Source: Alphaproteobacteria bacterium
Lineage (GTDB): Bacteria; Pseudomonadota; Alphaproteobacteria; Caulobacterales; Maricaulaceae
DNA length: 64,000 nucleotides
Direction of reading: 5' to 3'
NCBI GenBank assembly: GCA_024742735.1
Contig: JANSXV010000003.1
Span: 62,001-126,000, forward strand
The notes under the pieces were generated by a model. It saw nothing but the letters and a program-made list of their open reading frames with translations. It was not told the DNA's origin and ran no database searches. Shown here piece by piece: positions 31,504 through 43,909 of this stretch; position 1 is the stretch's first letter, and the number at the start of each line of letters is the position of its first letter. A program made the position numbers and the translations under genes.

Positions 31504-32042
31504 CCGCCGCGCGGACGCCAGAACACCAGCGTGTCCGCCTTGCCCGACAGCATGGCTTTCGCCGGGTCGCCATAGCCGAGCTTCTCGGCGACCCGGATGG
31601 ACGCAGCGTTTTCGGGATCGATCAGGCAGCAGGAGCGCGGCGCATCAATCGTCCCGTCCAGCCAGGCCAGCGCTGCGGTCATGGCCTCGGTGGCGTAGCC
31701 CCGGCCATGGACATGGGGGCTCAGCACCCATCCCGCTTCGGGCACGCCGGAGATGTCCACGGTCAGCTCACGCTTGAAGTCTGCGAAGCCCACCTGACCG
31801 CAGAAGCGGTCATCCGCCTTGTCCTCCAGCGTCCAGTAGCCATAGCCGAGAAGCGCCCACAGCCCCGGGAAGCGCAGCATGCGAGCCCAGCTCTCCGTCG
31901 GCGTGGACGGCGTACCGCCAATATGGCGGGTGACGCGGTGATCGCCCCACAGCTGCGCGCAAGGCTCGAAGTCATCTGCTCGCGTCGCCCGCAGGATCAG
32001 GCGCTCAGTCTCAAGGCGCGGGGCCTCGCGCCCCTCGCTCAT
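31500..32042 (-). CDS. GNAT family N-acetyltransferase (RimJ/RimL-like)
   Basis: 180 aa. It starts LETERLILRATRADDFEP and has a CoA-binding stretch VHGRGYATEAMTAALAW followed by PENAASIRVAEKLGY, the RimJ/RimL layout. Substrate unknown. The ATG overlaps the stop of the upstream DUF1330 gene (4 nt), so the two are coupled. Confidence 0.85.
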   Translation of the reverse strand: MSEGREAPRLETERLILRATRADDFEPCAQLWGDHRVTRHIGGTPSTPTESWARMLRFPGLWALLGYGYWTLEDKADDRFCGQVGFADFKRELTVDISGVPEAGWVLSPHVHGRGYATEAMTAALAWLDGTIDAPRSCCLIDPENAASIRVAEKLGYGDPAKAMLSGKADTLVFWRPRGG

Positions 32043-32491
32043 TGCGCGTCTTCAGTGCGCTGGGGCAGCGCGTCGACCAGCACCACGTTGAAATCGCCCC
32101 ATTCATTCTGGATGCGCAGATCGGCCAGGGCGCGGTAGTCCGGGTCGTTCCAGAAGGCCCGCGCGCTGTCCCGGTCCGGCCAGCGGCTCATGACCACGCT
32201 TTCGAAGGGCGTGTCGCCCTCCAGCGTCTCCACGTCGCCCGTGACCGCCACATACGACCCGCCGTGGCGCTCATAGAGCGGGGCGAGCTGGGAGGCGTAT
32301 TGGGACATGAAGGCCTGGCGGTCATAGACCGTGCCCATGACGATCATGTAGGCGCCGGTCTCAGGCGCTTCGTCCTGCATCCCGGAGGCCTGGGCGGCGC
32401 TGGCCGCGCCGGCGTCTCCCAGGATCAGGCCCAGGGAAAGCCCGGCGATGCCGGCGCCGGCGGCGATGAACAGGCTGCGCGGAAGGCTCAT
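32039..32491 (-). CDS. DUF1330 family secreted protein
   Basis: 150 aa. An N-terminal hydrophobic segment (about 7-33) looks like a signal or anchor. A dimeric ferredoxin-like DUF1330 domain follows (YMIVMGTVYDRQAF, LAPLYERHGGSYVAVTGDVE, FESVVMSRWPDRDSARAFWNDPDY). The function of the family is unknown. It starts 12 nt after the SSS transporter, in one unit with it and the GNAT gene. Confidence 0.82.
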   Translation of the reverse strand: MSLPRSLFIAAGAGIAGLSLGLILGDAGAASAAQASGMQDEAPETGAYMIVMGTVYDRQAFMSQYASQLAPLYERHGGSYVAVTGDVETLEGDTPFESVVMSRWPDRDSARAFWNDPDYRALADLRIQNEWGDFNVVLVDALPQRTEDAQ

Positions 32492-32503: not shown

Positions 32504-34012
32504 TCAGGAGGGTTCGGCGGGCGCAGGGTGACCTGCGCGCGCCGTCTGGCGAAAAGCAAAAAGCAGGAGGAGCGGTGCGAACCACGGAACGATCCGCTCG
32601 AACGGGTCGCCGGGAATGGCCGCAAGATTGGCGAACAGGGCCGGCAGGCCGGACAGGTCTGCGTCAGCGCCGGCCTGGCCGAAAATGTAGAACAGCACCG
32701 TGGTGAAGAAGCCGGCCAGAATGCTGGCGAAGATCGCCCAGCCCTGCGGCTCCACACCGGCTACACGCGCCACGATCACCGGGCCGAACGCGGCGCCGAG
32801 CGCTGACCAGGAGAACAGGACCCGGTCGAAGATCGTCGCAGGCAGAGAGAGGGTCAGCACCACGGCGAGTGCGCAGATGGCGGCCATGACCGAGCGGCTG
32901 ATCAGCACCTCGCGGCCCTTGAACAGGCGCACCAGGCGCAGGTCGTGGGCGGCGGCGGCGGACGCGGCGATCAGCAGGGAGTCCACCGTGCTCATCACCG
33001 CCGACAGGATCGCCGCGATGACGATGCCGGCCAGAACCGCCGGCAGCAGCGCGGCGGCGAGCTCGTAGAACAGCGCTTCGCCATCGGCGACATCAGGCAG
33101 CAGGGCCCGTCCGGCCAGCGCCAGGGCGGCCATGCCGATATAGACGATGACGCCCCAGCCCATGGCCACGATGAAGCCCTGGCGGCGGGCCTTCTCATCC
33201 TTCACCGCCATGAGGCGCGCCAGAAGATGGGGCTGGCCATAGGTCCCAAGCCCGATGGAGGCGATTCCGATGGCGAAGCCCAGGAAAGCAAAGCCGGCCC
33301 GTCCGCCCCAGGGGTCCAGATAGGCCGCCGGCTGGCTCGCGCTCAGGGCCTCCATGATCCCCGACGGTCCGCCCGCGGCGATCACGGCGAGCGCCGGCAG
33401 CAGCACGGCGATGATCGCCATGATCGCGCCCTGCAGCGTGTCCGTCAGCGACACCGCCCAGAACCCGCCGAGCAGGCCGTAGATCAGGATCACGCCCGCC
33501 CCGATGGCCACGCTCTCCCAGCGCGCCAGATCGAACTGGCTTTCAAACGCGATGGCCGCCGCGCCGAACTGGGCGGCGATGTAGAAGACGAAGGTGAACA
33601 GCACCAGGAAGCCGGCGAGCGCGCTGATGGCCGGGCGCCAGGCAGGCCCGGCGCGCGCGGCCATGAAGTCGCTGGCGGTCACATGACCTTCCGCCTCGGT
33701 TTCCGCTCTCAGGCGCGGGCCGAACCAGCACCAGACCAGGACGTATCCCAGCCAGATGCCCGGCACCATCCACAGCGCCGAGACGCCGACGGCATACACG
33801 AAGCCGGAAAAGCCCAGCAGCACCCAGGCCGAGCTGGTCGACGCGGCGTAGGACAGTCCCGCCACCCAGGCGCCCAAGCCGCGCCCGCCGAGGAAGAAAT
33901 CGGACTCGTTGCGGTTCAACCGGGCGGCCCAGACACCGATCCCGATCAGTACGATCTTGTAGAGGATAAGCGTCGCCAGCACGACGCCGGCGGCCGGTTC
34001 AGCGGACCCCAT
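32504..34012 (-). CDS. Sodium:solute symporter (PutP-like SSS family)
   Basis: 502 aa, about 13 membrane helices. The SSS features are FFLGGRGLGAWVAGLSYAAS near the N-terminus, the sodium-site region SAVMSTVDSLLIAASAA and a GLGTYGQPHLLARLMAVKD block as in proline permease. PutP-type carriers take up proline or related amino compounds with sodium. It is divergent from the 34-43 kb cluster and may supply its substrate, which is inference from position only. The 198-bp spacer 34013-34210 would hold both promoters. Confidence 0.88.
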   Translation of the reverse strand: MGSAEPAAGVVLATLILYKIVLIGIGVWAARLNRNESDFFLGGRGLGAWVAGLSYAASTSSAWVLLGFSGFVYAVGVSALWMVPGIWLGYVLVWCWFGPRLRAETEAEGHVTASDFMAARAGPAWRPAISALAGFLVLFTFVFYIAAQFGAAAIAFESQFDLARWESVAIGAGVILIYGLLGGFWAVSLTDTLQGAIMAIIAVLLPALAVIAAGGPSGIMEALSASQPAAYLDPWGGRAGFAFLGFAIGIASIGLGTYGQPHLLARLMAVKDEKARRQGFIVAMGWGVIVYIGMAALALAGRALLPDVADGEALFYELAAALLPAVLAGIVIAAILSAVMSTVDSLLIAASAAAAHDLRLVRLFKGREVLISRSVMAAICALAVVLTLSLPATIFDRVLFSWSALGAAFGPVIVARVAGVEPQGWAIFASILAGFFTTVLFYIFGQAGADADLSGLPALFANLAAIPGDPFERIVPWFAPLLLLFAFRQTARAGHPAPAEPS

Positions 34013-34210: not shown

Positions 34211-34999
34211 ATGCTCAAAGGCCTTGTCGCCGGCTTCGCCGCCCTCGCCTTCACCGCCTCCGCCGCCGCTCAGGCGCCGAGCGTTTCAGAGCCCTTCACC
34301 CAGGAGGTCTTCCAGACCTGGATCGACGCCCGGGCCGGAACCGGCGCCCCGGCCTACTGGTACTCGGTCGGCACGGTTCGCGATTATCCCTCCGGCGAGG
34401 TGCTCTACATCATGGAAGGCTATGACGCCTCCACCGCCTACTGGCCCGAAGGCCGCGAAGGCGCGGTCGCGCACCAGTATAACCGCAAGATCTACATCTT
34501 CCGGGACCCGGAAACCGGAGAGGTCGTACCGGAGAGCGTGCCGGTCGCCTATCCCTATCAGTTCATCACCTACACGCTGGCCGACGGCGCGATCGACACC
34601 GTGGTCGAGCAAGGGTCCGGCGATCGGATCCAGTCCATCGAGGGCGACGGGATGAGCTATCGCGCCTTGGGCGACACCCATGTCTTCACCGCGCCGGTCT
34701 TCATCGACTTTCCGATCCCCGGGACCGACCGGCGCATCCAGGCCTGGGAGAATTATGACTTCTTCATCCATCCCGACGGCGCGGTGGACGAACCGCACCA
34801 GCTCAGCTGGGCGCGGGTCGGTCAGCTGCCGCCCTGGGCCGGCGGCGGTCAGGCCGTCATGCACCTGATCACCTGGCGCATCGACGACTATGCGCAGGTG
34901 CCGGAGAGCCTTCGAACCTATATCGAGGCCGAGGCGCCGCTGTGGATGAACCCGCCCGCCGATCTTGACGAGATCCGGGCGTTGCAAGCCGGGGAGTGA
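34211..34999 (+). CDS. DUF1838-like secreted protein
   Basis: 262 aa from the ATG at 34211, which has AGGGAG about 9 nt upstream; ATGs at 34184 and 34202 are also in frame. The signal peptide is MLKGLVAGFAALAFTASAAAQA. The mature part resembles DUF1838 proteins: PAYWYSVGTVRDYPSGEVLY, RDPETGEVV, WENYDFFIHPDG. Function unknown. First gene of the co-directional cluster; the nitrilase-like gene follows after 4 nt. Confidence 0.68.
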   Translation: MLKGLVAGFAALAFTASAAAQAPSVSEPFTQEVFQTWIDARAGTGAPAYWYSVGTVRDYPSGEVLYIMEGYDASTAYWPEGREGAVAHQYNRKIYIFRDPETGEVVPESVPVAYPYQFITYTLADGAIDTVVEQGSGDRIQSIEGDGMSYRALGDTHVFTAPVFIDFPIPGTDRRIQAWENYDFFIHPDGAVDEPHQLSWARVGQLPPWAGGGQAVMHLITWRIDDYAQVPESLRTYIEAEAPLWMNPPADLDEIRALQAGE

Positions 35000-35003
35000 G
35001 GCC

Positions 35004-36188
35004 TTGAGCACCGATCTTGATCGCCGCCGGCTGTTCCATGCCGCCATCGCCATGAGCGCCCTGGGCGCGTTGTCGGGAACCGCGAAAGCGCAGGAGGACG
35101 CCGCGAATGGCCCGCGCCCTCTGCCCGATCGGGGCCTGGATCCCGCCGTGCCCTGGAACGGCGACTACGCCAAGGTCGCCCTGGCGAGCCCGGTGGTTCG
35201 CCTGGGCGTGTTGCAAAGCCGGGTGCGCGGCGTGGACGTCAGCTCCTCGCGCACCCTGGCGCGCACGCGCCAGGCCAATCTCGACCACATGAAGGATCTG
35301 ATCGACGCCGCCCAGGGCTGGGGCGGGCGCAAGGACATCCTGTTCTTCCACGAATTCCCCATCACCGGCTATCAGGCCGTGTGGGGCCGCGCCGAAACCC
35401 TGCGCGCCGCCATCGAAATTCCAGGCGAGGAAACCGAGCAGATCGCCGCGAAAGCGCGCGAACACGGTTGCTATATCGTGTTCGGTTCCTACGCCCGCGA
35501 CGCCGACTGGCCGGACCATGTTCTGTCGATCACCACGATCATGGGACCGGACGGAGAGATCGTGGACACCCACTGGAAGGCCCGCAACATCAAGGGCGTG
35601 TTCGGACCGGGCTTCGAGCTGTTCACCACGACGATCTATGACGTGCTCGACCAGTATATCGAGATGTACGGTCTGGACCACGTCATGCCCGTCACCCGCA
35701 CGCCGGTGGGCAATATCGTGACGAGCTCGGTCCAGCGCGAGCCCGAGCTGTTCCGCGCCTTCGCCATGAAGGGCGGGGAGATTTTCCTGCGCACCGCCAC
35801 GGGCGGGTTCACCCCGCTCGATATCCAGGCGACCAGCCTCTACAACGGGGTCTACACCGCCATCGTGAATAACGCGGTCAGCCCCGGAAATCCGAACTTC
35901 CTGGAGGATAACGGCGGAGCGGGCGGCTCGGCGATCTACGGCCCGGACGGAGTCATGATCGACGAGGCCAATTCCGAGCATGAGACGATCATCACCGCGA
36001 CCTTGCCCATGGCCGCCTTCCGCCAGCGCCATACGCTGCCCTACGTGCACATGGACCTCTACCGGCCGATCTTCGACGCCTACCGCAACCGCTTCCCGCC
36101 GAATCTGTTTGAAGACTATCAGCCCACCGATACCCGCGACGCCGCGCGGTATCTGGCCGACAAGGGCATCTGGGTTATGGATCGCTAG
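35004..36188 (+). CDS. Tat-exported nitrilase-fold protein, Cys replaced by Ser
   Basis: 394 aa from a TTG at 35004 with GGGGAG 7 nt upstream; this start yields a clean Tat signal (DRRRLFHAA...GTAKA). The nitrilase/carbon-nitrogen hydrolase fold shows the catalytic Glu (FFHE117FPITGY) and Lys (HWK192ARNIKG). The nucleophile position, six residues before PE(L)FR, is S241 rather than Cys. It shares DVLDQYIEMYGLDHV with the second nitrilase-like protein at 39989, so the two are paralogues. Predicted periplasmic. Whether Ser can serve as nucleophile is unknown. Confidence 0.82.
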   Translation: MSTDLDRRRLFHAAIAMSALGALSGTAKAQEDAANGPRPLPDRGLDPAVPWNGDYAKVALASPVVRLGVLQSRVRGVDVSSSRTLARTRQANLDHMKDLIDAAQGWGGRKDILFFHEFPITGYQAVWGRAETLRAAIEIPGEETEQIAAKAREHGCYIVFGSYARDADWPDHVLSITTIMGPDGEIVDTHWKARNIKGVFGPGFELFTTTIYDVLDQYIEMYGLDHVMPVTRTPVGNIVTSSVQREPELFRAFAMKGGEIFLRTATGGFTPLDIQATSLYNGVYTAIVNNAVSPGNPNFLEDNGGAGGSAIYGPDGVMIDEANSEHETIITATLPMAAFRQRHTLPYVHMDLYRPIFDAYRNRFPPNLFEDYQPTDTRDAARYLADKGIWVMDR

Positions 36189-36191
36189 ACC

Positions 36192-36812
36192 ATGCTGACG
36201 CCGCTGCTGATTTCGCTCACGCTCGCCCACCCCGATGTCCCGCCGCCCCATCCCGGCGATCTCGCCGAAATGCTGGCCGGGGCCTGGGACAACGCCGCCC
36301 AGATCGAGGCGGAAGGCGATCCCGACCGCCCGCATCTGCATGTGCGCCATGAAATCCTATCCACGGCGGCGCTCGAGGGCGTCCCGCTCTATGCCGAGCT
36401 GCGCGTGGGCGGACCGGACGGCGACGTCTATCGCCAGCGCGTGTATGTCATCAGCCCCGCGCCCGGCGGACGCGATATGGACATGGCGGTCTATGAGTTG
36501 GCCGACCCGGCGGCTTTCGCCGGCGCCGATGCAGCCGCATTCAGCGACCTGACGGAGGCCGACCTCATCCGCTTTGATCCGGGCTGCGACTTCCGCTGGG
36601 TTCAGACCGGCTGGGGCTGGGGCGGCGAGATCGAAGACGGGGCGTGCGTGCGCACCTCCCGGCGTTCGGGCCGCGAGATGATCATCGGCGCGGAGTTCAC
36701 CATCCGCCCCGATCAGTTCACCCATACCGAGACCGGACGCTACGCCGATGACGGCGAGACCGTGTTCGGGCCGCCTGACGGCGTGCCGAACATCTATGAC
36801 CGGGTGGAATGA
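36192..36812 (+). CDS. CpeT/CpcT-like protein
   Basis: 206 aa with an N-terminal signal-like segment. The CpeT/CpcT (DUF1001) pattern is clear: LAGAWDNAAQIEAEGD, YRQRVYVISP, a CD motif in FDPGCDFRWVQT, then GGEIEDGACVRTSRRSGR and a C-terminal VFGPPDGVPNIYD. In cyanobacteria CpcT attaches bilins to phycobiliproteins. No phycobiliproteins exist here, so a different lipocalin-type binding role is likely. It starts 3 nt after the nitrilase-like gene. Confidence 0.72.
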   Translation: MLTPLLISLTLAHPDVPPPHPGDLAEMLAGAWDNAAQIEAEGDPDRPHLHVRHEILSTAALEGVPLYAELRVGGPDGDVYRQRVYVISPAPGGRDMDMAVYELADPAAFAGADAAAFSDLTEADLIRFDPGCDFRWVQTGWGWGGEIEDGACVRTSRRSGREMIIGAEFTIRPDQFTHTETGRYADDGETVFGPPDGVPNIYDRVE

Positions 36813-36840
36813 CGACCCAATTGAGTTTGAAGGACCTTCC

Positions 36841-37548
36841 ATGACCGACACGCCCAAGCTCGAACCGACCATGATCCGTTCGGACAAGACAGCCAGGGAA
36901 ATCTTCGAGGAGGTGCGCGCCAATCCCTCGCGCGCCCGCTTCGGCTTCGGGGAGCGGCTCGCCATCGTCAATGTGGACCCGCAAAAGTCCTACACCCGGC
37001 CCGACCTGTTCCCGAAGACCGGCTATGTCACCGATCCTGATCAGCTCAACCACATCAACGAGATTTCAAAACTGGCCCGCGCCAAGGGCCTGCCGGTGGT
37101 CTGGACCCATGTCGCCTACATGGACAACGCCGCCGACGCCGGGATCTGGGGCACGCGCACCGACACGCCGGACTCCTTGCAGAACATCAAGTACGGCTCG
37201 ACCCGTCATGAGTTCGACGACCGGGTGGAGATCGATGAGACGGTGGACGCGGTCTACACCAAGCGCATGCCGTCGGCCTTCTTCGAAACCCCGCTGGCGA
37301 GCTTTCTGACCTGGCACAAGGTGGACACGGTGGTGGTCACCGGCGGCTCCACATCGGGCTGCGTGCGCGCCACCGCCGTGGACGCCCTGTCCCACGGCTA
37401 CCGCACCATCGTTCCCATGGAGTGCGTGGCCGACAAGCATGAGAGCTATCACTTCGCCAACCTGACCGACCTGCAGCTCAAATACGCAGACGTCGTGGAG
37501 GTGCAGGAGGTGTATGACTGGCTGAGCGCGTACACGGCGGCGGCGTAG
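36841..37548 (+). CDS. Isochorismatase-family cysteine amidohydrolase
   Basis: 235 aa from the ATG at 36841. The triad is intact: D46 (IVNVDPQKSY), K141 (VYTKRMPSAFFET) and C174 (GSTSGCVRATAVDA), with the non-proline cis-peptide region before the Cys. It resembles N-carbamoylsarcosine amidase and other ureide/amide hydrolases more than true isochorismatase. No signal peptide is present, so it should act in the cytoplasm. It is the one hydrolase of the cluster with an unmistakably complete active site. Confidence 0.88.
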   Translation: MTDTPKLEPTMIRSDKTAREIFEEVRANPSRARFGFGERLAIVNVDPQKSYTRPDLFPKTGYVTDPDQLNHINEISKLARAKGLPVVWTHVAYMDNAADAGIWGTRTDTPDSLQNIKYGSTRHEFDDRVEIDETVDAVYTKRMPSAFFETPLASFLTWHKVDTVVVTGGSTSGCVRATAVDALSHGYRTIVPMECVADKHESYHFANLTDLQLKYADVVEVQEVYDWLSAYTAAA

Positions 37549-37563
37549 CGGCCTTCGCAATCT

Positions 37564-37604
37564 TGAATTCCCGGCCAAGTGCGAAGCGCGCCGAGCCGGG
37601 ACCT
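37564..37604. repeat. Palindromic repeat, copy 1
   Basis: TGAATTCCCGGCCAAG...GAGCCGGGACCT, 41 nt, can fold through CCCGGC/GCCGGG. A second copy lies at 39919-39960 in the same cluster. It sits in the 143-bp gap between two cluster genes. Confidence 0.6.
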
Positions 37605-37635
37605 CCGCAGGATGATCCGATAGTCTTGAAGGAGG

Positions 37636-37664
37636 CCCCGGATCTTCGCTGCGCTCGTCCGGGG
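37636..37664. repeat. Hairpin CCCCGGA/TCCGGGG
   Basis: A 7-bp perfect stem with a 15-nt loop (37636-37642 / 37658-37664), followed by TTTC on the plus strand. It lies 32 nt after repeat copy 1 and 28 nt before the next start. It may be part of the same element or a weak attenuator. Confidence 0.45.
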
Positions 37665-37691
37665 TTTCAGATAAACGATTGAAATCAAACC

Positions 37692-38636
37692 ATGACCCAC
37701 CCCAATCTCTACGATTACAACCCCTACCAGTCCCGTCCGAAGATCGAGTGGCCGGGCGGCAAGAAGCTCGCCTTCTGGGTCGCGCCGAATATCGAGTTCT
37801 ACGAGTTCGATCCGCCGAAAAACCCCAGGCGCCCCGGCTGGCCGCGCCCGGCCCCGGATGTCACGGGCTATTCCCAGCGCGACTACGGCAACCGGGTGGG
37901 CCACTGGCGGCTCATGGAGCTGATGGACAAGTACGCAATCCGAGGCTCGGTCAGCCTGAACGTGGCCATGTGCGACCACTGCCCGGAGATCATCGAGGCG
38001 TGCAATGAGAGGGGCTGGGAGTTCTTCAGCCACGGCATCTACAACACCCGCTTCTCCTACGAGATGGATGAGGCGCAGGAGCGCGCGGTCCTGAAGGACT
38101 CCATCGAGACCGTCGAGAGAGCCACCGGCCAGCGCATTCGCGGCTATCTGGCGCCGGCCCTGACCCATACGGAGCGAACGCTCGACCTGATCGCCGAGCA
38201 TGACTTCTGGTATACGTGCGACCTGTTCCAGGATGACCAGCCCCAGCCGGTGAAGACAAAGACCGGGCGCCTGTGTTCCATGCCCTACTCCCTGGAGGTC
38301 AACGACGTCATCACCTATGGCGCGCTGGCCATGGATCCCTGGCGCTATGCCGACGTGCTGAAACGCCAGTTCGACCGGCTTCTGGAGGAGGGCGAGGAGA
38401 GCGGCACGGTCATGTGCATCCCGCTCCACGCCTATCTGGTCAGCCAGCCGCATCGTCTGAAGGCCTTCGAAGAGGCCTTCAAGCATGTTGAAGCCCACGC
38501 CGACGATGTCTGGATCACACGGGCGGTCGACATCGCCGAGCACTGGCGCACGCACTATTGGGACACGGTTCAGGATGATCTGGAGGAGAAGGGCCTGAAG
38601 ACTGGCGGTACGGCGTTCGAGGGAGCGGCGTCATGA
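37692..38636 (+). CDS. Polysaccharide-deacetylase-fold hydrolase (PuuE allantoinase-like)
   Basis: 314 aa. A NodB-fold protein of the allantoinase/imidase branch: LAFWVAPNIEFYEF in place of the TFDDG motif, RDYGNRVGHWRLMELMDKY, WEFFSHGIYN (SHG His retained), RGYLAPALTHTERTLDL and MPYSLEVNDV. PuuE-type enzymes open hydantoin rings, and cyclic imide hydrolases also belong to this fold. The substrate here is thus plausibly a cyclic amide or ureide. The next gene overlaps the end by 4 nt (ATGA). Confidence 0.82.
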   Translation: MTHPNLYDYNPYQSRPKIEWPGGKKLAFWVAPNIEFYEFDPPKNPRRPGWPRPAPDVTGYSQRDYGNRVGHWRLMELMDKYAIRGSVSLNVAMCDHCPEIIEACNERGWEFFSHGIYNTRFSYEMDEAQERAVLKDSIETVERATGQRIRGYLAPALTHTERTLDLIAEHDFWYTCDLFQDDQPQPVKTKTGRLCSMPYSLEVNDVITYGALAMDPWRYADVLKRQFDRLLEEGEESGTVMCIPLHAYLVSQPHRLKAFEEAFKHVEAHADDVWITRAVDIAEHWRTHYWDTVQDDLEEKGLKTGGTAFEGAAS

Positions 38637-38995
38637 TGCTTACTGCACTCGCCGCCCTCGCCCTTCAAGCTACGCCCGGAGGTCTGGCCGGAACCTGGGA
38701 CGTGGCGCTGTATTTCAGCGCCGACGCCCCGCCCAGCGCGACGGTCATGGTGCTGGCGCCCGGCGATGGCGGCGTGCTGGCGGGACGCTTCTACGGCTCG
38801 CCCTTCGGCGCGGCGCGCTTCGCTGAGCGTAATGGCGTCGTGGCCTTCACCGCCATGACCGAGGACGGCTCAGGACCCTATTTCCATTCCGGCCGTCTGA
38901 CCGAACCCGGCCGGATTGAGGGCCAGACCCTGTCGATGGGCCGTGACTTTCTGATGCTCTGGACCGCCGAGCGGCGCGAGGAGGGCGCGCAATGA
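38633..38995 (+). CDS. Small secreted protein, unknown
   Basis: 120 aa with a short signal-like start (MMLTALAALALQATPG). The mature part is a beta-rich domain (LAGTWDVALYFSADAPPSATVMV, FTAMTEDGSGPYFHSGRL), reminiscent of small lipocalin-like folds. No family was recognised. It overlaps the preceding and following deacetylase genes by 4 nt each, which strongly supports translation as part of the cluster. Confidence 0.68.
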   Translation: MMLTALAALALQATPGGLAGTWDVALYFSADAPPSATVMVLAPGDGGVLAGRFYGSPFGAARFAERNGVVAFTAMTEDGSGPYFHSGRLTEPGRIEGQTLSMGRDFLMLWTAERREEGAQ

Positions 38996-39921
38996 CCCTG
39001 GACCCCAGCTATCTCGACTACCCCAACCGCCGCCACGGCCAGGACATGGACCGCCATGACTGGCGCCTGGCCAAGGACCGGCCGCGCGTGGATCTGCCGG
39101 ATGGACAACAGGCCGCGGTCATGCCGGTGGTGGTCTGCGAGCATCACCCCATCAACCCGAAGAAGGCGCCCTTCGGCCATCCCCATGGCATGGTCACGCC
39201 CTATCCGGACCTGCGCCATTACACCACGCGCGATTACGGCAATCGCGTCGGCGTGTTCCGCATCCTGAAGGCCTTCCGGGAGGCCGGCCTGACCGCGACC
39301 TTCGCCCTGTCCGCCGATCTGCTGGAGCGCGCCCGGCCATTGGTGGACGCGATTCTCAATGACGGCCACGAGATCGCCGCGGCGGGCTTGAACGGCGATA
39401 CGATCCACCATTCCGGGATGGGCGAGGCCGACGAGCGCGCGCTGATAGGTCGGGTCCGCGACGCCTTCACGGCGGCGGGTCTGGAACCGAAAGCCTGGAT
39501 GTCGCCGGCGCGGCAGGAGAGCTTCAACACGCCGGATCTGCTGACCGAGGCCGGATTTACGACCGTACTGGACTGGGAGACCGACCAGGTCCCGGTCTTC
39601 ATGCGCACCAAGCACGGCGCCCTCGCCGCGCCGCCGGTGTTCAACGAGCTGGATGACTACAAGCTGCTGACCGAGCGCAAGCAGACCGAGGACCTCTGGG
39701 CGCGCCAGATTCTGGACAGCGTCGACTTGCTGAAATCCGAGCACGCCGCCCGGGGCGCCCAGGCGCTGGGCTTCACGCTGACACCTTTCGTGATCGGTCA
39801 ACCTTTCCGGATCGGCGCGCTGGAGGAGGTCTGCGAAAAGCTGGCGGGCGATGACACGGTCTGGTGCGCCGGCGCCAGCGCGGTGAGCGAGGCGTTCAGA
39901 AAATTGGAAGCCGCATCCTGA
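38992..39921 (+). CDS. Second NodB-fold protein, SHG His absent
   Basis: 309 aa, paralogous to the deacetylase at 37692: shared RDYGNRVG then FRILKAFREAGLTATFALSADL, and PARQESFNTPDLLTEAGF. The SHG motif is replaced by AAG (HEIAAAGLNGD), though a His pair follows (TIHHSG). Activity may be changed or lost. The two NodB-fold proteins could form a heteromer. Its stop codon is the first base triplet of repeat copy 2. Confidence 0.72.
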   Translation: MTLDPSYLDYPNRRHGQDMDRHDWRLAKDRPRVDLPDGQQAAVMPVVVCEHHPINPKKAPFGHPHGMVTPYPDLRHYTTRDYGNRVGVFRILKAFREAGLTATFALSADLLERARPLVDAILNDGHEIAAAGLNGDTIHHSGMGEADERALIGRVRDAFTAAGLEPKAWMSPARQESFNTPDLLTEAGFTTVLDWETDQVPVFMRTKHGALAAPPVFNELDDYKLLTERKQTEDLWARQILDSVDLLKSEHAARGAQALGFTLTPFVIGQPFRIGALEEVCEKLAGDDTVWCAGASAVSEAFRKLEAAS

Positions 39922-39960
39922 ATTCCCGGCCAAGCGCTTGAGCGCGCAGAGCCGGGACCT
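39919..39960. repeat. Palindromic repeat, copy 2
   Basis: 42 nt beginning with the TGA stop of the preceding gene: TGAATTCCCGGCCAAG...GAGCCGGGACCT. It matches copy 1 (37564-37604) at both ends and differs mainly in the loop. Confidence 0.6.
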
Positions 39961-39988
39961 TCGGTCAGAATGGATGAGGAGAATCGCC

Positions 39989-41119
39989 ATGACCACACGC
40001 CGTGACGTGTTCACCGGGGCTGCGGCGCTGGCCGGCGTCTCCGCCCTGCCCGGTGCGGCGCCGGCGCAGACGCCTGATCCGCGCTACTCGGCCTGCGCCC
40101 TTCAGGTGGTTTGCGATGCAGTCAATCAAGACAGCACCGTGGAGGCCGCCCGGGCGCGCATGATGGCCTCCATCCAGCGCATCGGCCGTCAGATCGCGAC
40201 CACCAAGGCTTTCCTGCGCACCTTCAACGGCACCGAGCTGAAGCTCGTGTGCCTGCCGGAATACTTCCTGACCGGCTTTCCCCTGCGCGAGAGCCGGGAG
40301 GAATGGAAGGCCAAGGCGAGCATCGATATCGGCGGGCCGGAGTATGAGGCGCTGTCCGCCCTCGCCCAGCGCTTCGGCGTTTTCATCGGCGGCAATCTCT
40401 ATGAGAACGACCCGAACTTCCCCGAGCTGTACTTCCAGGCCAATACGCTGATCAGCCCGTCCGGCGACACGGTGCTGCGCTATCGGCGAATGATCTCGCT
40501 TTACACCCCCACGCCATTCGATGTCTGGGACCAGTATCTGGACATCTACGGATACGACGCGGTCTTCCCCGTGGCCGACACCGAGATCGGAGTGATCGGA
40601 ACCATCGCCAGCGAGGAGATCCTGTATCCCGAGATCGCGCGCATGCACGCCCTGAAGGGTGCGGAGATCCTGCTTCACCCCACCAGCGAGGTCGGCTCGC
40701 CCAATATGACCGTGAAGGACATCGCCAAACGGGCCCGGGCGATCGAGTCCATGGCCTATATCGTCTCGGCGAACTCCGCAGAGATCATCGGCACGCCGGT
40801 TCCGGCGGCCTCCACGGACGCCATGAGCAAGATCGTGGACTGGAACGGGCGGGTGCTGGCTGAAGCGGAAAGCGGAGAAAGCCTGAACGCCAACGCCGTC
40901 ATCGACCTGCCCGAGCTGCGCGCGACGCGTAACCGTACCGGCATGGCCAATCTGTTGACCCGCCTGCCGCTCGCCGCCTTCACGCCCGGCTATGAGGCGG
41001 GTGTGGGCGCCGAGCCTGATTCCATGGCCGGGCGCGGCATGCTCAGCCAGGACGAAGCCCTCGCCCGCCAGCGCGGCGTCATCGACCGGCTGCGCGAGCG
41101 CGGCGTGTTTCAGGACTAG
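39989..41119 (+). CDS. Second Tat-exported nitrilase-fold protein, Cys replaced by Ser
   Basis: 376 aa from the ATG at 39989 (AGGAG upstream). The N-terminus TTRRDVFTGAAALAGVSAL...APAQ is a Tat signal. Nitrilase fold with catalytic Glu E91 (CLPEYFLTGF). The Lys position reads R167 (YRRMISL) and the Cys position reads S208 (IASEEILYPEIAR). It shares DVWDQYLDIYGYD with the paralogue at 35004. Two of three catalytic residues are changed, so this may be a binding protein rather than an amidase. Confidence 0.8.
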   Translation: MTTRRDVFTGAAALAGVSALPGAAPAQTPDPRYSACALQVVCDAVNQDSTVEAARARMMASIQRIGRQIATTKAFLRTFNGTELKLVCLPEYFLTGFPLRESREEWKAKASIDIGGPEYEALSALAQRFGVFIGGNLYENDPNFPELYFQANTLISPSGDTVLRYRRMISLYTPTPFDVWDQYLDIYGYDAVFPVADTEIGVIGTIASEEILYPEIARMHALKGAEILLHPTSEVGSPNMTVKDIAKRARAIESMAYIVSANSAEIIGTPVPAASTDAMSKIVDWNGRVLAEAESGESLNANAVIDLPELRATRNRTGMANLLTRLPLAAFTPGYEAGVGAEPDSMAGRGMLSQDEALARQRGVIDRLRERGVFQD

Positions 41120-41198
41120 GCTCTTGTCCCGGCCCGCACCTTGATCTAACCGCCGGATAAACCGCTTTGACAATGCGGATATCCGGGAGACGGCAGCC

Positions 41199-42155
41199 AT
41201 GGCCCAGGCGCAGATCAGTCAGGACGGCGACACATCCGGTCAGCTGACCGGCGTGGTCGTGCTGTTCTGCGCGGCCTGCCTGCTCGGATTTGCGCCGATT
41301 CTGGTGAAGACCTCCGAGCTGGGCCCGCAAGCCATCGCTTTCTGGCGTTTGACCCTGTCCCTACCCGTGCTCGCGGTCTGGCTCTGGTTCGAGAAGCGCC
41401 GCGCCCAGCGGCGGGAGCGGGACGCGGGCGTGGCGAAACCGCTGAGCTGGAAGCCCATCGTGCTGGCCGGACTGTTCTTCGCGGGCGATCTCGCCTTCTG
41501 GCATACCGGGATCAAGATCACCACGGCGGCCAATGCGACCCTGCTGGCGAACCTGACCCCCATCATCGTCGCGGTCGCAGCGTTCTTTCTGTTCGGCGAA
41601 CGCATCACCCGCACCTTCCTGGCCGCCGGCGCGCTGGCCCTGGCCGGCGCGGTGCTGCTGAGCGCAGCGAATGTGCAGTTCGCGCCCGAACGCCTGCCCG
41701 GCGACATCCTGTCGGTGCTGACCTCGTTCTGGTACGCCTCCTACCTGCTGGCGGTGCGCGCAGCGCGCCGCGCCGGGGCGGCCACGGTGGAGGTCATGTT
41801 CTGGTCCACGGCGACCGCCGCGCCCATCCTGCTGCTGGTCACGCTGGCCTTCGGCGAACCGATCCTGCCGCCTACCGCGCTGGGCTGGATGCCGCTGCTG
41901 GCGCTGGGGATCATCGTCCACGCTGGCGGACAGGGCGGCATCGCCTTCGGGCTGGGGCGAACGCCGGCGGCGCTCGCCACGCTGATCATCCTGATCCAGC
42001 CGGTGGTGGCGGCCTGTGCAGGCTGGATTCTCTTCGACGAGGCGCTGGTCCCGGTCCAGTGGCTGGGCACCGCGCTGGTGCTGGCCGGCGTCTACGCCGC
42101 GCAGCGGGTTCGCGCCCCGGTCTCGACCGCAGGACCGGGCCCGGCTAAACCCTGA
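41199..42155 (+). CDS. EamA/DMT family transporter
   Basis: 318 aa, ten hydrophobic helices in two EamA repeats (about 20-150 and 170-300). Typical blocks are LGPQAIAFWRLTLSLPVLA, TTAANATLLANLTPIIVAVAAF and AALATLIILIQPVVAACAGW. EamA proteins export or exchange amino acids and metabolites. It has the same direction as the cluster; the gap to the Rieske gene is 4 nt. Confidence 0.86.
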   Translation: MAQAQISQDGDTSGQLTGVVVLFCAACLLGFAPILVKTSELGPQAIAFWRLTLSLPVLAVWLWFEKRRAQRRERDAGVAKPLSWKPIVLAGLFFAGDLAFWHTGIKITTAANATLLANLTPIIVAVAAFFLFGERITRTFLAAGALALAGAVLLSAANVQFAPERLPGDILSVLTSFWYASYLLAVRAARRAGAATVEVMFWSTATAAPILLLVTLAFGEPILPPTALGWMPLLALGIIVHAGGQGGIAFGLGRTPAALATLIILIQPVVAACAGWILFDEALVPVQWLGTALVLAGVYAAQRVRAPVSTAGPGPAKP

Positions 42156-42159
42156 ACCC

Positions 42160-43287
42160 ATGATGGACGACCAGCCCGCTCGCCCGAACGCCGACGCCGA
42201 GACCGCCTTCAAGGCCTCCGGCGGCGCCCTGCTGCGCGATATCTGGTATGTCGCCATGACCGCCGGCGAACTTAGAGCCGGCAAGCTTCACAAGCGCATG
42301 TATCTGGGCGAGCCGGTCGTCATGGGCCGTAACCCGGATGGATCACCCTTCGCCCTGCGCGACATCTGCCCCCATCGCGCCGTGCCCTTGTCCGCAGGTC
42401 AGCTTCTGGACGGGTCCGGCGGCGGCCAGACGGTGGAATGCCCCTATCACGGCTGGCGCTTCGGCACGGCGGATGGAGTTTGCAAGCACATTCCCTCTCT
42501 GGTGGAAGGCCAGCCCTTCGACCTGGAGAAGATCACCGTGCGCCGCTACGCCGTGGCCGAGCAGGATGATCTCATCTGGATCTACATGCCGTCCGAGCCT
42601 GGCGCCGAGCCCTCCGGTCCGCCGCCGCGTTTTGAACGCATGGTTCATCACCAGGGCGCCAGTGAAGGCCGGGTGAAGTTCGTCGAGACCGCCGAGCTCG
42701 CCTGCCAGATGGACCACGCGGTCATCGGCCTGCTCGACCCCGCCCACACGCCCTTCGTGCACAAGAGCCCCCTCTGGCGCAGCTCAAAGACGCTGAAGGA
42801 AAAGGAAAAGCATTACGCGCCCAGCGAGATGGGCTTCACCATGCTCTCCCACGAGCCGGTGAACTCGCCGCTCTACACCTGGGTTCTGGGGCCCGGCGTG
42901 AAGGTGGAGATCCAGTTCCTGCTACCCGGGCTTCGCGCAGAGAGCATCACGACCGAGCGCCATTCCTTCCTGGGGCTCGCCGCCATCACGCCGATCCGGG
43001 ACGATTTGTGCGAGATTCGCGAGATCATGTACTGGAACGCGCCGAGCCTGGATCTGATCAGGCCGTTCGCCCGGCCCTTCACCCACACCTTCCTGCAGCA
43101 GGATGCGCGCATCATGAAGCTGCAGGGCGAAGGCCTGTCTCATGACCCGCCGCTCATGCAGATCCCGGACGCGGACACGCTGATGGTCTGGTACCGGCGC
43201 CTGAAGCGCGAATGGATCAAGGCGGGCGCAGAGGGGCGCGAATTCGAAAACCCTGTGAAGCCCGCGACGCTGCGCTGGCGGACCTGA
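42160..43287 (+). CDS. Rieske non-heme iron oxygenase, alpha subunit
   Basis: 375 aa. The Rieske [2Fe-2S] site is C70-P-H72 and C94-P-Y-H97-G-W. The mononuclear iron motif is D193-xx-H196-xxxx-H201 (LLDPAHTPFVH). The layout resembles vanillate demethylase-like and other aromatic or N-heterocycle monooxygenases. The needed reductase is not in the window. It would hydroxylate or dealkylate the cluster substrate, in the cytoplasm. Confidence 0.88.
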   Translation: MMDDQPARPNADAETAFKASGGALLRDIWYVAMTAGELRAGKLHKRMYLGEPVVMGRNPDGSPFALRDICPHRAVPLSAGQLLDGSGGGQTVECPYHGWRFGTADGVCKHIPSLVEGQPFDLEKITVRRYAVAEQDDLIWIYMPSEPGAEPSGPPPRFERMVHHQGASEGRVKFVETAELACQMDHAVIGLLDPAHTPFVHKSPLWRSSKTLKEKEKHYAPSEMGFTMLSHEPVNSPLYTWVLGPGVKVEIQFLLPGLRAESITTERHSFLGLAAITPIRDDLCEIREIMYWNAPSLDLIRPFARPFTHTFLQQDARIMKLQGEGLSHDPPLMQIPDADTLMVWYRRLKREWIKAGAEGREFENPVKPATLRWRT

Positions 43288-43291
43288 CGCG

Positions 43292-43909
43292 TCAGGCCTT
43301 CAGGCCGCCGATCACGACATTCATACGATGGGTCAAAGCTGCGCGCGGATCGGCGCCGTCATCACGCGAAGCTTCGCGTACTGCGCTGTAGAAGACTTCG
43401 CGGACCGCATGCAGGGCGGCGTCCGCGTCGAGATCACTGCGGAACTCGCCGCTCTCCAGCGCGCTGGTCAGCACGCGGCGCACAGGCGCCCAGACGAAGC
43501 TCAACTCTTCGAAAGCGGACTGAAAATCTGTGCTGGCGTCCAGCCACCGATAGCCGAGTGCGGCCGCGAACAGCTCAGTGTGCCGCAAATGCCCGTCCAG
43601 CATGAGTTGAAGCAGCGCGCCCAGCCGATCGACCGCCGCCCCGGACAGGGCGCTTTCCAGCTGCTCCGCACTCTCTGCGATCTGCTCGCACTCGCCGTTG
43701 AGGATCGCCACCAGGAGCGCGGCCTTGGTCGGCTCAGCGTTCAGGACCGTGCCTGGCGACACGCCCGCCTGATCAGCGATCGCCTTGATTGTCGCCCCTT
43801 CAAAGCCCTGCGCCAGAAAGACATGTTGCGCGGCTTCGAGCACGGCCGCCTTGGTGGCTTCGCGCCGCATGTCGCGCCGAGTCGCACGCTTGTTCGCCAT
43901 ATCACGCAT
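43292..43909 (-). CDS. TetR family transcriptional regulator
   Basis: 205 aa. The N-terminal TetR HTH (VLEAAQHVFLAQGFEGATIKAIADQAGVSPGTVL) is followed by an all-helical ligand domain. TetR proteins are usually repressors released by a pathway compound. It ends 4 nt after the Rieske gene stop and is convergent to it, so it is the natural candidate regulator of the cluster. The HTH has NAEPTKAALL where most TetRs have YHFxxKExLL. Confidence 0.86.
   Translation of the reverse strand: MRDMANKRATRRDMRREATKAAVLEAAQHVFLAQGFEGATIKAIADQAGVSPGTVLNAEPTKAALLVAILNGECEQIAESAEQLESALSGAAVDRLGALLQLMLDGHLRHTELFAAALGYRWLDASTDFQSAFEELSFVWAPVRRVLTSALESGEFRSDLDADAALHAVREVFYSAVREASRDDGADPRAALTHRMNVVIGGLKA

Follow-up and report, generated by a model that had tools for sequence, protein, structure and literature searches.

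A NodB-isochorismatase gene cluster predicted to act in the first steps of substituted-maleimide catabolism, with hematinic acid as a candidate substrate

Open reading frames and profile searches place ten genes in one direction on the + strand of the window, the 64-kb stretch of DNA analysed here, between positions 34,211 and 43,287. In order, these encode a DUF1838-like secreted protein (34211..34999), nitrilase-fold protein A (35004..36188; Pfam PF00795), a secreted protein of the CpeT/CpcT phycobilin-lyase family (36192..36812), an isochorismatase-family amidase (36841..37548; PF00857), the PuuE-related NodB-fold hydrolase NodB1 (37692..38636), a small secreted protein (38633..38995), another PuuE relative whose active-site positions are degenerate, NodB2 (38992..39921), nitrilase-fold protein B (39974..41119), an EamA transporter (41199..42155; PF00892) and a VanA_C-type Rieske oxygenase (42160..43287). 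Spacing depends on the start codons that we chose; with these, successive genes are separated by 4, 3, 28 and 143 nt, overlap by 4 nt twice, and are then separated by 52, 79 and 4 nt, in agreement with the overlapping and abutting genes of the first-pass annotation. Its description of a block without strand change applies only to these ten genes, since the TetR regulator that follows (43292..43909; PF00440) lies on the - strand. The sodium:solute symporter that it placed at the flank is there, divergent from the cluster (32504..34012, - strand; PF00474), and is a candidate inner-membrane importer; it lies near the isochorismatase-NodB1-NodB2 core also at loci L021, L026, L029, L030 and L037. 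Next to it is a divergent DUF1330 gene (32039..32491, - strand; PF07045), found near the core in many relatives.

The 143-nt gap 5' of NodB1 holds a palindrome-like element (37562..37664). Its first 15 bases are repeated 5' of nitrilase B in a second copy (39920..39961), which overlaps the NodB2 stop and reaches nitrilase B; neither copy is assigned a strand. A scan returned 0 promoter-like sites where 1.5 were expected, and 4 terminator-like sites where 5.0 were expected, counts that are uninformative.

Isochorismatase-like amidohydrolases share an Asp-Lys-Cys catalytic triad. All three residues that the first-pass annotation had called intact are present in the cluster's protein (D46, K141 and C174, the Cys aligning with that of its PDB relatives), placing it with these amidohydrolases; among its PDB relatives are N-carbamoylsarcosine amidohydrolases (105 and 95 bits). 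We predict that it is a substituted-maleamate amidohydrolase. Both NodB proteins score below the cut-off of the PuuE allantoinase family TIGR03212 (129.9 bits for NodB1 and 71.8 for NodB2, against 424.6), and PuuE itself (PDB 3cl6) is a relative of NodB1 (E 2e-30). In an alignment with PuuE, H114 and H246 are kept in 79/79 NodB1 rows, the latter aligning with a PuuE His, while NodB2 rows have His at the H114 position in 32 of 69 cases and at the H246 position in 7 of 69. With both His in NodB1 and most of them lost in NodB2, only NodB1 has the residues of a NodB-fold cyclic imidase, and NodB2 is no ordinary enzyme of its family. NodB1 is predicted to be a cyclic imide hydrolase, with NodB2 as its partner subunit. 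NodB enzymes related to PuuE include HxnM, for which PMC9304392 gives genetic support as a cyclic imidase.

The nitrilase superfamily uses a Glu-Lys-Cys triad. When 23 sequences were aligned, leaving out the L049 member, Glu was kept and Ser occupied the Cys position in all 18 B-type and all 5 A-type proteins (23/23); the B-type members also have Arg at the Lys position. This Ser sets both proteins apart from ordinary enzymes of the family, and we dropped ordinary amide hydrolysis by both as the default assumption. The two had been described as Tat-exported nitrilase-fold proteins; the fold and the RR (Tat-like) leaders, seen by eye, stand, but the usual catalytic Cys does not.

Among the secreted proteins, the CpeT/CpcT assignment is clear, at 75.5 bits to PF06206 (gathering score 21) with a match to CpcT (PDB 4o4o, E 6e-6). 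We know of no tested function for the CpeT proteins of these bacteria. The earlier label DUF1838-like survives, but only marginally (PF08894, 28 bits, cut-off 25). A predicted model of that protein consists mostly of beta strands (mean pLDDT 83.8), and Foldseek returned weak, low-TM matches only (LolA, LmcA, nitrobindin, nitrophorin and others), leaving a bilin-binding fold unsupported. Its gene occurs in 6 of 90 genomes of the order, all six NodB1-positive. The small secreted protein, whose gene overlaps both neighbours, had no Pfam or NCBIfam match and has relatives near NodB1 at 8 loci.

Conservation separates the core from the rest of the cluster. The isochorismatase-NodB1-NodB2 core is widespread, appearing in Alpha-, Beta- and Gammaproteobacteria records and on plasmids from bacteria that live in soil or with plants, and an isochorismatase gene is linked in 65 of 70 related loci. 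Nitrilase B, DUF1330 and CpeT are less widely kept, and among loci L021-L090 and L121-L129, EamA and TetR are found in L021 and L123 only and the Rieske gene in L021 only. The expectation of conservation past close strains is thus borne out for the core but not for the full set, and we dismissed a single conserved ten-gene operon on the grounds that EamA, Rieske and TetR are limited to the nearest relatives. At two loci, L049 and L090, genes for an amine oxidase, CpeT, a TonB receptor, the isochorismatase, NodB1, NodB2, nitrilase B, a lyase and a hydratase lie inside 16 kb, with CpeT adjoining the TonB receptor; the L090 record stops within the hydratase genes. Separately, two plasmid copies carry hydantoinase/oxoprolinase genes near the core, and large islands in two genomes (G021 and G040) hold genes for a third NodB, a mesaconyl-CoA-hydratase-like protein, an HpcH/HpaI lyase and an acyl-CoA dehydrogenase.

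The core is also linked to genes for later steps of a possible pathway. Across the 70 loci we found a hydratase large subunit in 37, its small subunit in 40, a methylisocitrate-lyase-like enzyme (hereafter lyase) in 33, an HMG-CoA-lyase-like enzyme (HMGL) in 8 and glutaryl-CoA dehydrogenase (GCDH) in 14. Hydratase, lyase, NodB1 and NodB2 stand in a single row at many loci; at 13 of 40 loci with full flanks, hydratase, lyase and HMGL are all absent within 10 kb. Lyase and HMGL never occur together (0/70), an exclusion that is not absolute outside these loci: on two sphingomonad plasmids HMGL is accompanied by a lower-scoring relative of the lyase (39% identity, 186 bits; limit 230 bits). In the window's own genome, hydratase, lyase and GCDH lie on the same contig as the cluster, ~163 kb away (lyase C24:268155, hydratase C24:269560, GCDH divergent from the hydratase).

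This hydratase belongs to the homoaconitase family (TIGR01343, 479.3 bits against 385.7) and scores below the HacA equivalog (NF040615, 441.2 against 550). A basic residue is present in the hydratase's substrate-recognition region in 52/52 distinct sequences (50 Lys, 2 Arg); homoaconitase has an Arg, and four presumed LeuD proteins have Thr, by eye. Specificity is set by this small-subunit region (PMC7308503). The lyase scores below the methylisocitrate lyase (PrpB) cut-off of TIGR02317 (298 bits against 354.4); it shares a KRCGH segment with PrpB, scores nearer the methylisocitrate lyases and keeps their Arg (Arg238 in 42/42 distinct sequences). Also related is 2,3-dimethylmalate lyase (PDB 3fa3, 161.8 bits). 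The GCDH groups with solved GCDHs (599 and 543 bits) over butyryl- (199) and short-chain (187) types, with only 171.6 bits to PDB 3mpi, also named GCDH, and 206.2 bits to NCBIfam GlutCoADH_Des (cut-off 470). GCDH also acts in lysine and tryptophan breakdown. Taken together, the basic residue, Arg238 and the linked GCDH favor a substrate with a third carboxylate, on a side chain. A CoA-transferase was considered as a candidate glutarate transferase; for one same-genus homologue, the third-ranked PDB match was a succinate-hydroxymethylglutarate CoA-transferase.

Among 90 genomes of the order, 21 have NodB1, 11 the lyase and 10 HMGL, and in raw counts that ignore shared ancestry, with ortholog limits (e.g. 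230 bits for the lyase) fixed after scores were seen, lyase or HMGL is present in 21/21 NodB1-positive and 0/69 NodB1-negative genomes. With the 1e-60 limit of the searches themselves, NodB1-negative genomes show two matches to the lyase and five to HMGL, and NodB1 has a match in G105. A same-genus draft in 420 contigs (G013), searched for NodB1 and the lyase, breaks the rule, with NodB1 and no lyase match. The FAD oxidase follows NodB1 in 17/21 positive and 0/69 negative genomes, nitrilase B in 16/21 and 0/69, and CpeT in 14/21 and 4/69, with 7/21 lacking CpeT.

From the observed gene content, linkage, co-occurrence and residues we infer every reaction, the step order and the substrate of the following scheme. 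We lean modestly toward a cluster that would perform the first two steps of substituted-maleimide catabolism, with hematinic acid as the maleimide and pigment fragments as its source. Substituted-maleimide chemistry is likely, and the chances of hematinic acid being the substrate are somewhat better than even. NodB1 would open the cyclic imide to a maleamate, NodB2 probably assisting it without catalytic activity of its own. The isochorismatase would release the amide of the maleamate as ammonia, leaving a disubstituted maleate. The heterodimeric homoaconitase-family hydratase may then form a malate, which the methylisocitrate-lyase-like enzyme could split into a 2-oxoacid and a carboxylate, the latter to be consumed by GCDH after activation. 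Overall, a substituted maleimide would pass through maleamate, maleate and malate to pyruvate and glutarate. With glutarate as the carboxylate and pyruvate as the oxoacid, the maleimide would be 3-(2-carboxyethyl)-4-methylmaleimide, that is, hematinic acid. Binding or uptake of the pigment, or of pieces of it, may fall to two of the secreted proteins, CpeT and the DUF1838-like one, and to TonB receptors encoded next to their relatives. The first-pass annotation had proposed a cyclic amide or imide as substrate, with ring opening by a NodB-fold enzyme and amide removal by the isochorismatase. That class is supported, and the linked hydratase, lyase and GCDH allow it to be narrowed to a substituted maleimide. 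Weighing against the scheme are the 13 full-flank loci without hydratase, lyase or HMGL close by, the ~163-kb distance in the window's own genome, the G013 draft, and the imperfect match of CpeT with NodB1 across the order.

The same enzyme order could instead act on a dialkyl maleimide (methylethyl-, methylvinyl- or dimethylmaleimide) to give pyruvate and butyrate or propionate. The same enzymes would serve as far as the lyase, itself a relative of 2,3-dimethylmalate lyase, and the island genes of G021 and G040 could serve a second maleimide; but the small-subunit basic residue, Arg238 and the linked GCDH point to a third carboxylate, and we consider this substrate unlikely. Somewhat less probable still is that the maleimide pathway is right and its source is no tetrapyrrole but, for instance, a secondary metabolite, a compound made by plants or a dicarboximide xenobiotic, with CpeT and DUF1838 as coincidental binders of something else. 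The plasmids of soil and plant-associated bacteria would suit such a source, and the proteins scanned included neither heme oxygenase nor any other unmistakable tetrapyrrole enzyme; against it stand the enrichment of CpeT in NodB1 genomes, its adjacency to a TonB receptor in the core neighbourhoods of L049 and L090, and the methyl and carboxyethyl pattern, the one seen in hematinic acid.

In the reading toward which the first-pass annotation leaned, NodB1 would open a hydantoin, a ureide or another cyclic carbamoyl compound, and the isochorismatase would cut the carbamoyl product. Kinship of NodB1 to PuuE, the N-carbamoylsarcosine amidohydrolases among the isochorismatase's relatives and the hydantoinase/oxoprolinase genes by two plasmid copies speak for it, but NodB1 falls far short of the PuuE cut-off and the linkage to a hydratase, a C-C lyase and GCDH is left unexplained, making this the case to which we give very little weight. 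Returning to hematinic acid, we tentatively extend the scheme, with rather more doubt than belief, to a dedicated pathway by which numerous Alphaproteobacteria, and other bacteria here and there, would feed on tetrapyrrole pigments. Linear tetrapyrroles or pieces of them would be captured by TonB receptors together with CpeT and DUF1838 proteins, then cut to maleimides by flavin oxidases and VOC proteins. From hematinic acid the NodB-isochorismatase-hydratase-lyase core would produce ammonia, pyruvate and glutarate, beside a parallel branch for methylvinyl- or methylethylmaleimide.

Chlorophyll, made and degraded at a scale of 10^12 kg per year (PMC7318184), yields hematinic acid and other maleimides on oxidation, as does heme (PMC7318184, PMC10343206). 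Hematinic acid is reported from leaves and lake sediments (PMC7318184); the authors of that paper detected it themselves but not the other maleimides. The bacterial protein ChuS forms hematinic acid from heme (cited in PMC10343206; reference list of PMC8669743), and bacteria break porphyrins down to pyrrole compounds (PMC8669743). That bacteria can form hematinic acid is already published; the new part would be a bacterial maleimide-consuming pathway, as neither this gene set nor bacterial consumption of hematinic acid is described among the open-access literature matches listed. Should the prediction prove right, it would fill in last steps that are missing from the recycling of heme, chlorophyll and bilin pigments and make isochorismatase-NodB1-NodB2 with hydratase and lyase marker genes for pigment recycling in metagenomes. 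It would also hint at what DUF1838, the CpeT proteins outside cyanobacteria and a nitrilase clade lacking its catalytic Cys do.

Several known systems resemble parts of this scheme. In the Aspergillus nidulans nicotinate pathway (HxnM/HxnN), and with a Pseudomonas putida imidase (AAY98498), a PuuE-related NodB-fold imidase is likewise followed by an amidase; that system takes a six-membered imide to alpha-hydroxyglutarate, and its described part includes no step by a hydratase, C-C lyase or GCDH (PMC9304392). PuuE allantoinase shares sequence and two His positions with NodB1, but NodB1 lies far under its equivalog cut-off and is paired with a tandem NodB2 mostly lacking one His. Cyanobacterial CpcT/CpeT phycobilin lyases share a family with the CpeT protein by Pfam and PDB matches, whereas the protein here is secreted, comes from a non-cyanobacterial host and has no known ligand. 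In the methylcitrate cycle, PrpB cleaves a 2-methyl tricarboxylate to yield pyruvate, a reaction in which its Arg has a role; the lyase here shares its KRCGH segment but scores below its family cut-off and is linked to imide enzymes. Nicotinate fermentation, which is anaerobic and has no imide step, uses dimethylmaleate hydratase (DmdAB) and then 2,3-dimethylmalate lyase (Dml). As here, an aconitase-type hydratase precedes a PEP-mutase/ICL-family lyase on a disubstituted maleate, but the lyase of our scheme is nearer the methylisocitrate lyases, carries their Arg and is accompanied by a linked GCDH.

The cluster comprises ten genes on the plus strand (34,211-43,287), encoding a DUF1838-like secreted protein, nitrilase-fold protein A, a CpeT protein, an isochorismatase, the PuuE-related NodB-fold protein NodB1, a small secreted protein, a second such NodB-fold protein (NodB2), nitrilase-fold protein B, an EamA protein and a Rieske oxygenase. 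A TetR gene lies downstream on the minus strand, and divergent genes for a sodium:solute symporter and a DUF1330 protein lie upstream. The window spans positions 62001-126000 of contig C24, in a genome of 3.2 Mb and 34 contigs, and the named records that match NodB1 best come from Oceanicaulis, Alkalicaulis and Glycocaulis. We also noted a palindrome-like intergenic element at 37562-37664 and 39920-39961, both copies inside the cluster; allowing as many as two mismatches, the window contains its first 15 bases at these two places only.

Searches with the window's proteins (tblastn) show that the widely conserved core consists of isochorismatase, NodB1 and NodB2. Nearer relatives also retain nitrilase B, DUF1330, the DUF1838-like protein and CpeT, while EamA, Rieske and TetR are local only. 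The first-pass annotation had taken the ten genes plus TetR (34211-43909) as one cluster for a nitrogenous or cyclic-amide substrate. That cluster is real and unusual, but the relevant unit combines the three core genes with a tail of hydratase and lyase genes beyond the window; we judge the proposed class of chemistry to be right, all functions being predictions. NodB1 is present in 8 of 14 other genomes of the window's genus, and a single pattern-seeded scan of an 84,980-species collection, which detects close relatives only, yielded 70 NodB1 loci. Cultured environmental bacteria that carry the core include Glycocaulis albus and Alkalicaulis satelles. In some relatives (L022:10986-11677 and L125:10833-11518), two small genes resembling, by eye, an antitoxin and a PIN-domain toxin lie between NodB1 and NodB2. 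In marine loci, three to six copies of a VOC-like (by eye) protein of ~300-330 residues follow the core (L075:11832-17283, and similarly L072 and L077-L080), with one copy in L073; the one copy scanned had no Pfam match.

We aligned the active sites. Both histidines aligning with PuuE are present in all 79 NodB1 rows, and the second is retained in 7 of 69 NodB2 rows; NodB2 is thus degenerate, and we infer that it is a partner subunit. The nitrilase-fold pair does not carry the catalytic cysteine: serine replaces it in all 23 aligned RR-leader sequences (18/18 B-type, 5/5 A-type). The catalytic glutamate is retained in both types, and the lysine position is arginine in the B type, the phmmer alignment to PDB 1f89 running without gaps there. 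Because the serine substitution is uniform, it argues for a changed function of these proteins rather than decay.

In the window's own genome, genes for a methylisocitrate-lyase-like protein (hereafter lyase) and the hydratase subunits lie at C24:268-271 kb, ~163 kb past the cluster end, with a glutaryl-CoA dehydrogenase (GCDH) gene divergent from the hydratase. GCDH adjoins the hydratase in all five regions compared, that of this genome and four of the genus (L121, L124, L127, L128, L129). A nitrilase B paralogue, a GntR gene, an FAD oxidase and an aldehyde dehydrogenase follow at C24:277-283 kb. On two other contigs, one CpeT gene is grouped with a TonB receptor gene and a relative of a strong DUF1838 protein at C23:356-361 kb, and another lies with an amine-oxidase relative at C19:558-560 kb.

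In other genomes such genes lie beside the core itself. Annotated 3-isopropylmalate dehydratase subunits are found within ~5 kb of it on Sphingomonas, Sphingobium, Acidiphilium and Burkholderia plasmids. CoA-transferase and hydroxymethylglutaryl-CoA lyase (HMGL) genes accompany it on all but the Burkholderia plasmid, and an isocitrate lyase/PEP mutase family gene on all but the Acidiphilium plasmid, so that the two sphingomonad plasmids carry both kinds of cleaving enzyme; their PEP-mutase-family gene, however, shares only 39% identity with the lyase of the window's genome and scores below our set limit. Comamonas and Salipiger core copies lack dehydratase, CoA-transferase/HMG-CoA lyase and PEP-mutase-family neighbors, and the Salipiger region contains amidase and hydantoinase/oxoprolinase genes. 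Family scans of selected neighbors across the 70 loci identified aconitase-type hydratase, PEP-mutase/ICL lyase, acyl-CoA dehydrogenase, FAD_binding_4 oxidase, aldehyde dehydrogenase, crotonase, TonB receptors and others. By score limits set in this analysis, 65 loci encode isochorismatase, 37 the hydratase large subunit, 40 the small subunit, 33 the lyase, 8 HMGL and 14 GCDH; none has lyase and HMGL together, and the eight HMGL loci lack a lyase match even at E 1e-5. Forty loci span 20.5 kb or more; of these, 24 have the hydratase large subunit, 26 the lyase or HMGL, and 13 none of these genes. The most telling linkage is in L049 and L090, where amine oxidase, CpeT, TonB receptor, core, nitrilase B, lyase and hydratase genes lie within at most 16 kb (the L090 sequence stops inside the hydratase genes).

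Co-occurrence was counted across one set of 90 genomes of the order, with Fisher values that carry no correction for phylogeny. With E limits picked after a score gap was seen, NodB1 occurs in 21 genomes (E < 1e-129; 9 of 26 genera), the lyase in 11 (E < 1e-110) and HMGL in 10 (E < 1e-119); the lyase and HMGL sets are disjoint, and their union is the NodB1 set (21/21 versus 0/69). At E 1e-60 the counts become 22, 13 and 15, with matches at 1e-78 to 1e-60 in NodB1-negative genomes (lyase in G025 and G076; HMGL in G065, G055, G028, G049 and G032). At the limit given to each search, NodB1-positive and -negative genomes differ in FAD oxidase (17/21 versus 0/69), nitrilase B (16/21 versus 0/69), the DUF1838-like protein (6/21 versus 0/69) and CpeT (14/21 versus 4/69). 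Within the window's genus, 7 of 14 other genomes have the lyase, every one NodB1-positive; G013 has NodB1 and no lyase match.

All gene functions here are predictions. A NodB-fold PuuE relative can act as a cyclic imidase. In Aspergillus nidulans such a protein, HxnM, which shares 64% identity with a cyclic imide hydrolase homologue of Pseudomonas putida, is reported to be required for cyclic imide opening, with an amidase acting next (PMC9304392). The imide would most simply be a maleimide, because an aconitase-type hydratase needs a cis-dicarboxylate with a double bond. The small-subunit recognition region is reported to determine hydratase specificity (PMC7308503); there, all 52 distinct sequences have a basic residue (50 Lys, 2 Arg), whereas by eye threonine stands at this place in four presumed LeuD proteins from the genus. 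The lyase is related in sequence to methylisocitrate lyase and dimethylmalate lyase, which convert 2-methyl malates to pyruvate. Its Arg238, present in 42 of 42 distinct sequences, aligns with arginine of solved methylisocitrate lyases and tyrosine of petal death protein. An HMGL-type lyase with CoA-transferase would be the CoA-dependent equivalent of this step; two unrelated enzymes serving one cleavage would explain why lyase and HMGL replace each other. Sequence scores identify the linked acyl-CoA dehydrogenase as GCDH (599 bits with solved GCDHs, against 187 with short-chain enzymes). Catabolism of a substituted maleimide is likely. An imide bearing a methyl and a carboxyethyl group corresponds to hematinic acid, from which the route would give pyruvate and glutarate, and we consider it somewhat more probable than otherwise that this is the substrate.

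Several neighbors may point toward tetrapyrrole pigments. The CpeT of the window has a sequence match to CpcT, a phycocyanobilin lyase of known structure, and the cyanobacterium is the sole one of 14 control genomes in which the family occurs. Three CpeT genes lie in a 48-kb stretch of genome G021, and two in a 40-kb stretch of G040, each with NodB1, HMGL, FAD oxidase and nitrilase B; such association does not prove bilin binding, which is putative for CpeT. Strong DUF1838 proteins (236 bits for the one in L135, the others assigned by similarity) lie beside CpeT at L135:14002-15987, beside CpeT and a TonB receptor at L136:9287-14211, and beside an amine oxidase and a TonB receptor at L083:7954-12941, which suggests uptake or processing of one ligand. 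Two islands, in G040 (L130-L132) and G021 (L133-L135), have much of the gene content surrounding the core in common, including a third NodB, SDR, HapK-like protein, MaoC/mesaconyl-CoA hydratase, HpcH/HpaI lyase, amidase, AMP-binding and MmgE/PrpD genes and multiple CpeT genes; the G021 island also has TonB receptors. They may hold a second maleimide branch. Heme oxygenase was not found among the proteins scanned. A larger system for consuming pigments is possible. Heme oxidation is reported to end in hematinic acid and methylvinylmaleimide, senescent leaves and lake sediments are reported to contain maleimides and hematinic acid, and E. coli ChuS is reported to convert heme to hematinic acid (PMC7318184, PMC10343206).
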